Virus record (IMG/VR): IMGVR_UViG_3300048672_000469
Location: 1-35,575 of that record
Direction: 5' to 3' (one strand)
DNA from: a virus
Length of the DNA stretch: 35,575 nucleotides
Part shown: in pieces, positions 18,421 through 32,801 of the stretch
Position numbering within the stretch: position 1 is the first letter of the stretch
Layout: each line of letters opens with the position of its first letter
The notes under the pieces: generated by a model
The model's database searches: none
What the model was told of the DNA's origin: nothing
The model's input: the letters and a program-made list of their open reading frames with translations, nothing else
Program-made: the position numbers and the translations under genes

Positions 18421-18804
18421 TTAACTAACTCTCGCATCATTGGTTCTACTAAGCAACTCACTGAACATCTTACCAGTGAGAGCGTCATATTCACCCACTG
18501 CACGTATCGCAATAATATAACACCACGATCCATTTTCGTCAATGAAGAACGCAATGCTGCGGGGTATGTATGAATAGCCCTCTGGCACGCATGTTAGCAC
18601 AGCATCAACAATAGCATCTACCGGTTTAACGGCAAAAAACAGGTTGATTTGTGCGGTTTTTAGCACCATAACCGCGGCACTTGGCATCGTAGCACTATGC
18701 TCGGTTAGATGCGTGTCTAAACGGTTCAAAATTTCGAGTTCTTTTTCCGTAAGCACATGCCGTGGCTTGTATTGCTTGTTGAATAGTTTAGTTAACCATT
18801 TCAT
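18421..18804 (-). CDS. Hypothetical protein with a duplicated C-terminal segment
   Basis: This 127-residue protein is basic at the start (MKWLTKLFNKQYKPRHVLTE) and then mixed, with a hydrophobic central beta region. It starts in an ATGA overlap with the GIY-YIG gene. Its last 34 codons are repeated as a fragment 554 bases further along the cluster (17874-17975), with only synonymous differences. That indicates that both copies were under protein-level selection while they diverged. No known function. Confidence 0.72.
   Translation of the reverse strand: MKWLTKLFNKQYKPRHVLTEKELEILNRLDTHLTEHSATMPSAAVMVLKTAQINLFFAVKPVDAIVDAVLTCVPEGYSYIPRSIAFFIDENGSWCYIIAIRAVGEYDALTGKMFSELLSRTNDARVS
18428..18529 (-). 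repeat. 102-bp coding segment duplicated at 17874-17975
   Basis: The two segments align without gaps at 96 of 102 positions. The six differences fall at third codon positions (Asn, Asp, Gly, Asp, Ile and Tyr codons) and change no residue. Confidence 0.85.
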
Positions 18805-19223
18805 TTTAGATCCTTTATTTTCTGCTTGAGCATCGCCACTTTAGCCTTTGCTTTGTCTGCTTTGATTTTCTTATTTGCATTTCGTTTTGCACTATTAAGT
18901 TTCTTTAATAGTGTTCCACGAGTTTTGTATTTGCCCTTCAGCCCGCCACACATTTGATTTAGGCACATTGGGTCATAAAGGGCTTCATGTGGAACAAGCA
19001 ACTCCTCACAATCGTATGCTTCCGTTTCAGTAGCAAATGTCTGTAATAACACAGTGGTCCAAGTATCCCACGCATAATCGGGTAGTTGAAGCGATAACTT
19101 AAATGCTATCCCACTTCCTTTGTATGTGCCATTTAGCACGTTAGCAGTTTTCGCCTTACCAGTGTAATATAGCCCGGTTGGGTGCGTAGTTTTATAACAA
19201 CACCACTCAAGTGTTAGGTTCAT
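18801..19223 (-). CDS. GIY-YIG-type endonuclease, possibly a homing enzyme
   Basis: This 140-residue protein shows the features of phage GIY-YIG nucleases: Y10-KTT followed by LYYTGKAK (YIG position), then NGTYKGSG (usually DGY.GSGK), a candidate metal-binding Glu at 73 or 74 in AYDCEELLV, and a CLNQMCGG segment matching the usual YN...GG. The helix Arg seen in many members is not obvious (Lys 42 is near), so activity is uncertain. The C-terminus is a lysine-rich helix, likely DNA binding. Such free-standing enzymes cut related phage genomes and spread their own locus. It is coupled to the next gene by ATGA. Confidence 0.75.
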   Translation of the reverse strand: MNLTLEWCCYKTTHPTGLYYTGKAKTANVLNGTYKGSGIAFKLSLQLPDYAWDTWTTVLLQTFATETEAYDCEELLVPHEALYDPMCLNQMCGGLKGKYKTRGTLLKKLNSAKRNANKKIKADKAKAKVAMLKQKIKDLK

Positions 19224-19924: not shown

Positions 19925-20201
19925 ATGTGAATCCCTCTCCTTTGTGTATCTGGTTGTAAATCCACTGAACAGTTTTGCCGTGTGCTACCGCGGCTGCTCT
20001 GACTGATGGAAATGTTCCCAAGGGTGTTGTTAATGCACGAGCATTTATTGCAGCGGCATTAGGCTTATTGACTTTCTCTTTTTGTGTACGAAAGTCAATG
20101 ATGCGTCTTTTGGTATGCAAGTTTATTTCATATTCAGGGATGACTGAATCTTTTCTAACTGCATAACCCTTTATCGCTTCTTCAAACAATTTCTGCTCCA
20201 T
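19908..20201 (-). CDS. NUMOD-type DNA-binding protein, first gene of cluster A
   Basis: This 97-residue protein has a C-terminal module TTPLGTFPSVRAAAVAHGKT followed by a helix (VQWIYNQIH) and GEGFTY. This resembles the NUMOD1/intron-encoded nuclease repeat DNA-binding module. The same outline (.PxGxF, ... I...., GF) ends two proteins in cluster B (29050-29487 and 29925-30338). No nuclease domain is present. It may be a leftover of a homing endonuclease or a sequence-specific regulator. Confidence 0.7.
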   Translation of the reverse strand: MEQKLFEEAIKGYAVRKDSVIPEYEINLHTKRRIIDFRTQKEKVNKPNAAAINARALTTPLGTFPSVRAAAVAHGKTVQWIYNQIHKGEGFTYDNKG

Positions 20202-20300: not shown

Positions 20301-20307
20301 ATAAATA
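20301..20307 (+). promoter_or_regulatory. TAAATA box before a short RNA
   Basis: GATAAATATTG lies in the divergent gap and is followed 50-90 bases later by a terminator without a gene. Confidence 0.5.
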
Positions 20308-20312
20308 TTGTT

Positions 20313-20393
20313 GTATTCCTTGCACAACTGAAATACACGCGGCTGGGGAGTCGCAACTAACCCGTATCAGATTCTATTTGATGCGGGTTTTTT
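20313..20393 (+). ncRNA. Candidate small RNA (about 80 nt)
   Basis: Between the TAAATA box and the terminator the sequence can fold a compact hairpin, GCGGCT-GGGG-AGTCGC (around 20338-20353), followed by the terminator stem. There is no reading frame with a ribosome site. The size and architecture parallel the candidate at 17398-17483. Function unknown. Confidence 0.45.
20359..20393 (+). terminator. Intrinsic terminator
   Basis: AACCCGTATCA (20359-20369) pairs with TGATGCGGGTT (20379-20389) over 11 bp including one wobble, followed by TTTT. No rightward gene lies between 20202 and here, so it most likely ends the small RNA. Confidence 0.87.
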
Positions 20394-20403
20394 ATGGGCA
20401 ATG

Positions 20404-20410
20404 ATAAATA
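20404..20410 (+). promoter_or_regulatory. TAAATA box before the large structured RNA
   Basis: GATAAATACAAG lies 11 bases after the terminator T-run, the same arrangement as at 23130 and 32859. Transcription would begin near 20416. Confidence 0.58.
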
Positions 20411-20415
20411 CAAGT

Positions 20416-21080
20416 AGACAAACAAAGTCTCTAAACTGGAAACGCAAGGCGAAATACCCTAAAAGGCCCCGAGTAAAGTGTATCGCAAGGAAATAAACTA
20501 AATGTGCCTAATCAGCATCTTCCGAGCACTTATGTAACGCACCAAGTTACTTTTACTAATAGACTTGGGAGTGGTCTACCATTTTGATTAAAAACAAACT
20601 GTTATGTTCAGTCGCTTAAGAATCCTTTCAAACAACTTGCGTTATAGTGGTGGGGGAACTTGATACTATATGTTTTTAATCAATACAACAAATGCCTGAC
20701 TTAAGAGCGATAGCGAATGCTTACAAGTAGATAGAGCGATAGCGAATATCTACGCAGTGAGCCCGACTGCGCGTAGCGTAGTTCGGCTTTACCCAAAACA
20801 TAATATAAAGTTAATATCAAAAAGTAACAGGGAGCCCTGATCTGGAGATCGAGACAGACAATTCTCTTGCAGAGACATTTGTCATTCGGGCTGCTGCCCT
20901 CATCGAGTTCTCTTATCGCTACGCTCAAGACAACTCAAGGATTGATACTCAAGTCGCTGCGCTCTTCCTTGAGTATCAATCCAAGGGGTAAACCCCAAAA
21001 CCGCTTGAGTCGCTGCGCTACCTCAGCATATTTTGGACGATGCCATCGTAACTCATTTTAGAATCTGCCGACCTGCCCAA
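20416..21080 (+). ncRNA. Large structured non-coding RNA candidate (about 650 nt)
   Basis: No long frame fits, but stems are dense. TTGATTAAAAACA (20584-20596) pairs perfectly with 20671-20683. An AGCCC...GGGCT junction (20833-20892) encloses GATC-TGGA-GATC and TCTCT-TGC-AGAGA. A 29-base hairpin with 12 of 13 pairs spans 20760-20788. A perfect 15-bp stem pairs 20939-20953 with 20968-20982, followed by GGGG-TAAA-CCCC (20985-20996). Three successive hairpin loops carry TCGCT(A/G)CGCT (20916, 20954, 21010). A 15-base sequence AGAGCGATAGCGAAT occurs twice (20704, 20733) and could pair with those loops. Size and phage context recall the GOLLD/ROOL class of large ornate RNAs; I cannot confirm the family. 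A mini-frame MCLISIFRALM (20502-20537) with an AAGGAA site lies inside. Confidence 0.7.
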
Positions 21081-21083
21081 CGA

Positions 21084-21090
21084 ATAAATA
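21084..21090 (+). promoter_or_regulatory. TAAATA box before the methyltransferase gene
   Basis: AATAAATATAG is 27 bases before the ATG. The ribosome site and start (CAAAGGAAACTAAATGA) are identical to those of the S74 fibre gene at 3625, which also has a TAAATA box. Confidence 0.58.
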
Positions 21091-21117: not shown

Positions 21118-22335
21118 ATGAATACAAAACAAATCACAGCGGGTGATAACTTCACTCTGCACCTTGGCGATAACCTCGCAACTCTTAAAGCCTACCCTGA
21201 TAACACATTTGACTCTATCGTCACTGACCCGCCGTATGGCATTGACTTTTTAGGTAAAAAGTGGGACTCACATACGGGCACAGTTGAACTATACAAAGAA
21301 TGTCTACGAGTGCTTAAACCCGGTGGATACTTACTTGCATTCAGTGCAGCAAGAACATATCACAAACTTGCTTATTCAGTTGAGTTAGCAGGTTTTGAGA
21401 TACGCGATCAACTAATGTGGCTTTACAGCAGTGGCTTTCCAAAAGCACAGGACATTGGTAAGGCGATTCAGAAACGATTAGGCGTTAAAGAAACTGTGGC
21501 CCACAAATACAATAAGCCCGGTGTGGCTAATTCAAATGATGTATTCTACACAGAAAACCCACAACAAACTGTATGCACAGATGATATTGCTAAAGAATGG
21601 GAAGGATTCAAGACAGCACTCAAACCAGCACACGAGCCAATCGTTATGGCACGCAAACCATTCAAAGGTAGCACCATTGATAATGTGTTAAAGAACGGTT
21701 TAGGTGCTATGAACATTGATGCTACGAGAGTGCCGTGGGTTGATGATCAGCCAAAGCCACAACCACTCAACGGTAATGGTGGTGTAATATTTCAAGGCAC
21801 TGGTTACATACCCGCAGATGAAGATGCAGAAATGAGTGTCGTAAGTGACGCCGGTCGCTATCCATCTAATGTCATCGGTGAAGTGGCTGAAGGGTATCAA
21901 AAGTATTTCTACTGCCCCAAGGTTAGCCGCAAAGAGAGGCACAGTGGATTTGAAAAGGAAATAGAAGGTATTCGTTTTGCACCAGAACCCAAAGATGGTT
22001 GTGCTGCTATTATCGAAGGCCACGAAGATCAGCGATGTGGTGATGCTAAGATAACCATCGGTAACAACCACCCAACCGTGAAGCCAGTTGCACTTATGGA
22101 ATACTTAATCAAATTGGTAACACCACCGTCTACACCTACTCTACAACGCAAAGTCTTGGACCCGTTTAACGGTAGCGGCTCAACTGGTATGGCTGCAACT
22201 AAATTAGGTCACTACTACACCGGATGTGAGTTGGACCCTAAGTATATTGCCATCAGTGAGAAAAGGATTGAAGCGTGGAATGCACCTGAACCAGAAGATA
22301 ACCCACTACCCGATGACCTTTTCGGCGATATTTGA
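21118..22335 (+). CDS. DNA methyltransferase, beta-class N4-cytosine/N6-adenine
   Basis: This 405-residue protein carries DPPYG at residues 37-41 (catalytic motif IV) and PFNGSGSTGMAA near residue 350 (AdoMet-binding motif I), followed by CELDPKYI. The order DPPY then FxGxG marks the beta class. KPGGYLLAFSA and QLMWLYSSGFPKAQDIG are further conserved blocks. The region between (about residues 120-300) would hold target recognition. It would methylate phage DNA, most likely against host restriction; no partner nuclease is nearby. Cys/His residues in the middle (YFYCPKVSRKERHSG) are typical of this phage subfamily. Confidence 0.93.
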   Translation: MNTKQITAGDNFTLHLGDNLATLKAYPDNTFDSIVTDPPYGIDFLGKKWDSHTGTVELYKECLRVLKPGGYLLAFSAARTYHKLAYSVELAGFEIRDQLMWLYSSGFPKAQDIGKAIQKRLGVKETVAHKYNKPGVANSNDVFYTENPQQTVCTDDIAKEWEGFKTALKPAHEPIVMARKPFKGSTIDNVLKNGLGAMNIDATRVPWVDDQPKPQPLNGNGGVIFQGTGYIPADEDAEMSVVSDAGRYPSNVIGEVAEGYQKYFYCPKVSRKERHSGFEKEIEGIRFAPEPKDGCAAIIEGHEDQRCGDAKITIGNNHPTVKPVALMEYLIKLVTPPSTPTLQRKVLDPFNGSGSTGMAATKLGHYYTGCELDPKYIAISEKRIEAWNAPEPEDNPLPDDLFGDI

Positions 22336-23128: not shown

Positions 23129-23135
23129 ATAAATA
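23129..23135 (+). promoter_or_regulatory. TAAATA box before the packaging genes
   Basis: TATAAATACAAG is the closest match here to the T4 late core TATAAATA. It lies seven bases after a terminator T-run and 67 bases before the terminase small-subunit gene. Confidence 0.65.
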
Positions 23136-23201
23136 CAAGCATCAGTAACTTATTTTGAGCCTGATAACAAGAGTGGCATCCAAATTGGACCACATTGGAT
23201 T

Positions 23202-31353: not shown

Positions 31354-31360
31354 ATAAATA
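31354..31360 (+). promoter_or_regulatory. TAAATA box before the capsid gene
   Basis: GATAAATAACC lies back to back with the leftward sigma70-type promoter and 175 bases before the capsid ATG. It is the only box found between cluster B and the capsid gene. Confidence 0.5.
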
Positions 31361-31365
31361 ACCAT

Positions 31366-31535
31366 GAATGGACACGGCCCACATTGGCAACCAAATCCAT
31401 AAAAGTTATCAATCTAACAAGACAACAGGACGGTACTGCCTAATCCTTTATCGAGTGAGATGAGATATTGGAGATATTGATCATAGGTTTGATCAGCATC
31501 TATTCTATTTTGTTTTATTATTAAAGGAGCCTATC
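31366..31535 (+). other. Long untranslated leader of the capsid mRNA
   Basis: About 170 bases separate the predicted start from the capsid ATG, whereas other TAAATA leaders are mostly under 30. I see no credible gene. Small stems are possible, such as GATCA-TAGGTT-TGATC near 31480-31495. A stable or regulated leader for the most expressed gene is plausible, but the sequence does not show how. The ribosome site AAAGGAG lies at its end. Confidence 0.45.
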
Positions 31536-32801
31536 ATGGCCGGAACTACAACAACAGACCTTAATGGTCTATTTAAGGAAGTATACGCTTCCGATCTTAT
31601 CAACTTAATCCCTGACGAATCTTTGCTTGTTAAAGCAATCAAATTCCAAGGACGTGAACACCTATTAGGTTTAACATATAACCAACCGGTTATCGTTCGT
31701 TCAGAACAAGGCTTTACATACAGCCGCCCTGACAATGGTGCGTTCGCAATCTCCGTACCAAGTTCAATGAAAACACGTAATGCATCTTTAGGCGCATTCC
31801 AAATCATCGAAAACAGTGGTATTTCTTATGAAGCAGTAAGCCGTTCTAACAACGCTAACAGTTTCAAGGAAGCAACAGCATTGGTTATGCAAGACGCAAT
31901 GGAATCTTTCGGTCGTCGTATCGAAATTGCATTGTTATACGGTCAGTCTCCAACTGGCTTAGGTACAATTGCTACATCCACAAACGTTTCTGCAACAGAA
32001 ACAACAATCTCCTTTGCAACTGGTGCATGGAGTTCTGGTCTTTGGACACCACTTGAAGGTGCTTCTTTAGATATCTATACATCCGCTGGTGTTGCTCTTA
32101 ATACAGTAGGCCCAATGGTTGTTGCATCTATCGACGTAACAAACAAGACAATCAACGTAACTGGCGCTGCTGCTGACGTTACAGCAATCGATGCTACTAC
32201 AGTAGTTAACGGTGGTTACCCACGTTTCTACTCCGCTGGTACAGACGGTGCTGATGAGGCTTGTGGTTTAGATCGTATCATGACTAACACAGGCACATTG
32301 TTTGGTATTGATGCATCTGTTTACTCTCTATGGAAAGCAAACACATATGCAGTTGGTGGCGCATTGACATTGGCTAAGATCCAAGCAGGCGTTGCTATTG
32401 CTGCACAACGTGGCTTGTCAGAAGATGTATCTTTGTATGTCAACCCAAGCGTATGGCAAGAGTTGTCAACAGAGCAAGTTGCATATCGTATGCTTGACTC
32501 TTCGTACTCCAGCAAGAAACTTGCTAACGGTACAGAAGCCCTTGAGTTCTTCAGCCAAAACGGCAAGATCTCCGTACATGCTCACAAGTATGTTAAAGAA
32601 GGTGATGCGTTCTTGTTACCAACAGACCGTTGCGTTCGTATCGGTTCTACTGAAGTTTCGTTTAACATCCCAGGTACAGACAATGGCCAGGTGTTCATCC
32701 AAAACCCAGGTACTGCTGGATTTACATTCCGCTTGTATTCTGCACAATCGCTATTGGTTGAAAAACCAGCAGCATGTGTTAAATTCACTGGCGTAGTTTA
32801 A
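31536..32801 (+). CDS. Major capsid protein (probable)
   Basis: This 421-residue protein has a strong AAAGGAG ribosome site and its own leader and terminator. Codon use differs visibly from the neighbours, with many ATC, TTC, AAC, CGT and GGT codons, as expected for a very abundant product. An N-terminal helix region (LFKEVYASDLINLIPDESLL) is followed by a beta-rich centre with an Ig-like or insertion-type Thr/Val-rich stretch (about residues 140-230). The C-terminus is conserved-looking (GQVFIQNPGTAGFTFRLYSA). An HK97 fold is expected for tailed phages but is not proven by the sequence. The position after portal and scaffold supports the call. Confidence 0.85.
   Translation: MAGTTTTDLNGLFKEVYASDLINLIPDESLLVKAIKFQGREHLLGLTYNQPVIVRSEQGFTYSRPDNGAFAISVPSSMKTRNASLGAFQIIENSGISYEAVSRSNNANSFKEATALVMQDAMESFGRRIEIALLYGQSPTGLGTIATSTNVSATETTISFATGAWSSGLWTPLEGASLDIYTSAGVALNTVGPMVVASIDVTNKTINVTGAAADVTAIDATTVVNGGYPRFYSAGTDGADEACGLDRIMTNTGTLFGIDASVYSLWKANTYAVGGALTLAKIQAGVAIAAQRGLSEDVSLYVNPSVWQELSTEQVAYRMLDSSYSSKKLANGTEALEFFSQNGKISVHAHKYVKEGDAFLLPTDRCVRIGSTEVSFNIPGTDNGQVFIQNPGTAGFTFRLYSAQSLLVEKPAACVKFTGVV

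Follow-up and report, generated by a model that had tools for sequence, protein, structure and literature searches.

The window analysed here is a 35.6-kb (35,575-nt) record of an uncultured phage in IMG/VR, in which a P22-like portal and a terminase are present. A gap of 915 nt separates its leftward genes, which end at 20201, from a rightward DNA methyltransferase gene at 21118, and the RNA region under study sits in this gap. The junction is divergent and modules have been exchanged there; the genes beside the RNA are syntenic across the phage clade. No tRNA was found in the window with ARAGORN, and no HNH/IsrB-type annotation appeared among the proteins neighbouring the RNA. Within the adjoining leftward cluster, the gene at 18801-19223 matched the homing endonuclease family phrog_314, and this gene is conserved in three related contigs (L003, L017 and L212).

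The window contains nine copies of the motif ATAAATA, each on the plus strand and either between genes or at a gene end just before the next start (3595, 5989, 20404 and 21084 among them). From this placement, it looks like a promoter element of the phage's own; it resembles T4-type late promoters, NATAAATA being a term that turns up with cyanophage papers. One copy (20404-20410, plus strand) follows a terminator-like hairpin (20359-20389, plus strand) at the head of the region, in agreement with the first-pass annotation, which had placed a promoter-like box directly after a terminator. Another (21084-21090, plus strand) separates the RNA from the methyltransferase gene. The homologous RNA of contig L212 is bracketed in the same way (13583 and 14439), and that of contig L014 has the downstream box (213). 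The RNA would probably be transcribed rightward, as its own unit, from the box at 20404. Neither in the window nor in L212 could a terminator be detected downstream of the RNA, so that read-through or processing is possible.

Other noncoding stretches in the window also begin with ATAAATA. The box at 20301 and the terminator-like hairpin ending at 20389 possibly delimit a small RNA of about 75 nt just upstream of the large one. The stretch at 23129-23201 is shared with L003 (7763). At 31354-31535, a leader directly precedes a 421-aa gene (31536-32801), presumably the capsid gene; this leader is found across the phage clade, with two hairpins of differing stems and similar-looking apical loops (AGCC..GGGUAA), and has no Rfam match.

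All features of the RNA described below are on the plus strand. In the 5' part of the presumed transcript (20416-20690, boundary and structure uncertain), two long-range stems are visible, the perfect 13-bp stem reported earlier (20584-20596/20671-20683) and a second one at 20441-20448/20636-20643. The 3' part comprises a row of hairpins. An anti-loop segment, the first of two AGAGCGATAGCGAAT copies (20704-20718), is complementary to loops D, E and G and absent from L212; the second copy is at 20733. Hairpin A (20727-20753) has the loop GAGCGATAGCGAA. Hairpin B (20760-20788), with an imperfect stem, has the loop GCGCGTAGCGT, which forms 8 perfect base pairs with loop D; at this position L212 also forms a hairpin, but with another sequence. 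The core contains H1, GATC-TGGA-GATC (20839-20850), inside the conserved run CTGATCTNGAGATCGAGACAGAC, and H2, GGGC-TGCT-GCCC (20888-20899), inside the invariant run GTCATTCGGGCTGCTGCCCTCATCG, as identified by homologue comparison. Hairpin D (20904-20936), with TCGCTACGCTC in its loop, is followed by hairpin E (20939-20982), a perfect 15-bp stem (20939-20953/20968-20982) with the loop TCGCTGCGCTCTTC, by hairpin F, GGGG-TAAA-CCCC (20985-20996), and by hairpin G (21007-21024), which bears the third TCGCTGCGCT loop and in whose place L212 and L014 have another hairpin. A 3' tail, GGACGATGCCATCGTAACTCATTT (21035-21058), is common to L212 and largely also to L014. The first-pass annotation had listed the 15-bp hairpin, the hairpin at 20760-20788, three TCGCT(A/G)CGCT loops and two near-complementary upstream copies; all were located, the loops at 20916, 20954 and 21010. 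Both TCGCT(A/G)CGCT and its near-complement are limited to the gap that holds the RNA and occur nowhere else in the window.

The fold of the whole region was more stable than that of shuffled sequence (z = -3.8). The two parts contributed unequally: z was -4.7 for 20690-21075 but +0.3 for 20416-20690, as compared with a mean of -0.7 (sd 1.2) for 380-nt control tiles of the same genome. Only the 3' part is therefore structured beyond expectation. The corresponding domain of L212 gave z = -3.2. The earlier description of a highly structured RNA of about 650 nt therefore holds for the 3' portion of about 370 nt, which is conserved and stable, and not for the 5' portion of about 275 nt, whose sequence is not conserved in L212 and whose stability is no greater than that of shuffled sequence.

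Protein scans, with the terminase, the portal and the methyltransferase as queries, yielded the phage clade and other loci. Two further contigs of uncultured phages carry relatives of the RNA, in each case at the gene junction that it occupies in the window. L212, located by a pattern derived from hairpin E, has the whole RNA (nhmmer E = 1.5e-25 against the window RNA); L014 begins inside the RNA, so that its 3' end only is available, in which the two loop hairpins recur. From these three members we built a covariance model, R1, of the 3' part; it scored 201 bits for L212, 167 for the window and 117 for L014, and picked out no other convincing member in the contigs of the phage clade. An additional R1 match on the minus strand of L212, at hairpin A (17.6 bits), arises because hairpin A mirrors hairpin D. 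Employing an alignment (A4) to scan for the downstream gene, we obtained the L212 and L014 contigs only. BLASTN searches with the window and L212 RNAs against INPHARED phages, and with the window RNA against PLSDB plasmids, gave no meaningful match, and exact core patterns were absent from GTDB genomes. In IMG/VR, L212 was the sole true match to the core pattern, three others being due to chance; a loop-pair pattern gave at least 119 matches there, none homologous by HMM among those examined. In L003, whose terminase is 97% identical to that of the window, the junction has a different gene block and about 180 nt with no RNA, though this contig is 13 kb long, so that another part of that genome might in principle carry the RNA.

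Several candidates were rejected. A 908-nt noncoding stretch of L017 (1910-2817) lies at the same divergent junction, folds with z of about -2.5 and contains two TCGCT..CGCTC motifs; it was matched by neither R1 nor nhmmer, and is perhaps a different RNA in the same slot. A weak match in L104 falls inside a gene, and motif matches in three contigs (L054, L083 and L091) appear, on reading by eye, to be coding.

Comparison of the members provided evidence for structure. Between the window and L212, CTGATCTNGAGATCGAGACAGAC and GTCATTCGGGCTGCTGCCCTCATCG are near-invariant, whereas stems A, D, E and F have changed extensively in sequence without losing their pairing. The stem of hairpin A is wholly changed in L212 (AAGTATC/GATACTT), with 5 of 7 pairs compensatory; hairpin D has an A-T to T-A compensation in L212; the 15 pairs of hairpin E show compensatory changes in L212 and L014, with one broken cell; and hairpin F reads GAGG/CCTC in L212 and GGAT/ATCC in L014. 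Across helices A, D, E and F, a hand-made structural alignment of two or three sequences (three members, two of them complete) has 51 cells, of which 24 are compensatory, 1 one-sided, 25 unchanged and 1 broken. In an uncorrected MAFFT alignment, evaluated for the structure minus hairpin A, 86.7% of cells were paired and 5 pairs had changed on both sides, as compared with 25-49% and 0-2 pairs when the partners were slid. The covariation in related phage contigs that the first-pass annotation had proposed looking for is seen in these alignments. A protein-coding region was rejected: no ORF of at least 60 aa has a conserved homologous frame in the region, all frames being interrupted or unconserved, and three single-base indels between the window and L212 in the conserved core exclude a common reading frame. 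From these comparisons, selection has very probably kept the hairpins, and the case for a new family of structured RNA in phages is good.

Every altered pair in helices A, D, E and F is Watson-Crick; G-U pairs are absent. Such compensation, and the location of the region at a divergent site of module exchange, would also suit a palindromic element acting at the DNA level (an origin, or a packaging, recombination or transcription-collision site), with selection on DNA hairpins. We consider this improbable. Unpaired stretches and loops are near-invariant, and the sense strand of the 3' domain folds better than the antisense strand relative to shuffles (z = -4.7 vs -2.5). An essential origin would not be missing from the closest relative, L003, and the GC skew lacks a sharp switch at the element itself.

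In the structured RNA that we favour, the 3' domain is, as the homologues show, a row of hairpins around the near-invariant core, with loops that bear two mutually complementary motifs: a GAGCG(A)AGCGA-type motif in hairpin A and TCGCTNCGCTC in hairpins D and E. In the window only, the former recurs in the upstream segment and hairpin B, and the latter in hairpin G. The complementarity of the hairpin A loop to the TCGCTNCGCT loops, over 11-12 nt, is kept in both complete members. For the duplex of loops A and D, the predicted energy was -18.2 kcal/mol in the window and -18.9 kcal/mol in L212, and none of 500 loop shuffles was as good; for loops A and E, it was -17.7 and -16.6 kcal/mol, respectively. 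At most 2 of 500 shuffles matched the A-D or A-E pairing in either member. Relative to L212, the window has an extra TCGCT loop (G) and an extra anti-copy (at 20704), giving 3 TCGCT-type loops against 2-3 anti-type segments, as compared with 2 against 1 in L212. The conservation of the loop pairing is suggestive, although the pairing does not itself covary.

TCGCTNCGCTC is not peculiar to this RNA. In unrelated phage contigs, 11 of 188 sites lay in hairpins with arms of at least 6 bp, as did 6 of 940 random positions. The motif is thus about ten times commoner than random in short-hairpin loops, with instances in nine unrelated environmental phages (L236, L242, L253, L262, L266, L269, L282, L288 and L292), and for this reason the repetition of the loops does not by itself prove kissing contacts. 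The TCGCTNCGCTC loops might instead represent a dispersed short repeat inserted into hairpins in both orientations, with complementarity as a by-product. The occurrence of the motif in hairpins of so many unrelated contigs speaks for this explanation, which concerns the loop contacts only, is compatible with a real RNA and has a probability that overlaps with those of the other readings. We regard it as a distinctly weaker possibility than contacts between the loops, since the window phage has the motif in the RNA only, loops D and E have been retained in all three members despite their rewritten stems, and the A-D pairing stays at about -18 kcal/mol in both complete members. Of the earlier proposal of loop-loop contacts, the conserved complementarity in the complete members stands as support, and the repetition of loops is not sufficient by itself.

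The RNA is followed directly by a same-strand gene in all three members, with no terminator found in between. It could accordingly be a very long structured 5' leader, riboswitch-like or attenuator-like, that controls the downstream operon in cis. However, the gene concerned is the methyltransferase in the window and a homologue of g22561 in L212 and L014, which have no methyltransferase between the RNA and that homologue, and an ATAAATA box separates RNA and gene in every case. A leader is therefore unlikely, and the variable downstream gene speaks more for action in trans than for a leader specific to one gene. Because L003 lacks the RNA at the junction, the RNA is, on this comparison of contigs, an accessory module; nor does it have a fixed downstream gene. 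Its presence and absence in very close relatives offer a natural comparison for examining its role.

Taken together, the region appears to encode a stand-alone structured noncoding RNA of a new family, organised by loop-loop contacts, a reading that we hold to be the more probable one, with some reserve as to the contacts. The complementary loops most likely kiss and thereby fold the domain, and the RNA may act in trans during infection in a scaffold-like manner, by analogy with what has been proposed for GOLLD and ROOL. GOLLD forms an RNA-only cage of 14 molecules and ROOL one of 8. The assembly of both RNAs into multimeric RNA-only cages, of unknown purpose, was shown in 2025 in a study that does not settle whether large natural RNAs commonly form cages. 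In the present RNA, a motif and its complement on several hairpins per molecule would let copies be joined multivalently, as a cage or a network. That it forms such an oligomeric assembly, as a third independent phage RNA class self-assembling via many kissing loops, is a speculative and rather unlikely proposition. As an unrelated phage RNA with conserved complementary loops, it nevertheless provides a direct test case for multimeric RNA; if it also assembles, multimeric RNA would be a recurring phage strategy.

The first-pass annotation had named GOLLD, ROOL, HEARO and OLE as candidate families, with a new class as the alternative. No family in Rfam 15 matched the whole window at the gathering score, and none was matched in a permissive cmscan (E up to 10) of the RNA region, L212 and L017. 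Targeted searches of the carriers for GOLLD (RF02032) and, without a positive control and hence with less weight, for ROOL (RF03087) found nothing at E up to 10. Membership in a known family was therefore not borne out, and the covarying helices and conserved loop complementarity point to what is probably a new class. OLE, HEARO and raiA are likewise large structured bacterial RNAs, but none of them reached E = 10 in the cmscan of the region. ROOL is similar in being phage-borne, about 600 nt long and built on loop-loop contacts, which in the window RNA are predicted; it differs in the lack of an RF03087 match (in the search without a positive control) and of any tRNA in the window. GOLLD, also large, phage-borne and noncoding, is a parallel in that it is rich in kissing loops, as predicted for the window RNA, and combines a conserved 3' region with a variable 5' region (PMC12286853), as does the RNA described here. 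Size, phage location and this layout might suggest a divergent GOLLD or ROOL member, which the failure of all these searches renders very improbable. GOLLD is, moreover, often near or contains tRNA genes, whereas the window RNA has none nearby or inside, and its conserved core sequence is another one. The RNA resembles GOLLD in layout only and is not a member; we read it as a new family of ornate-type phage RNA.
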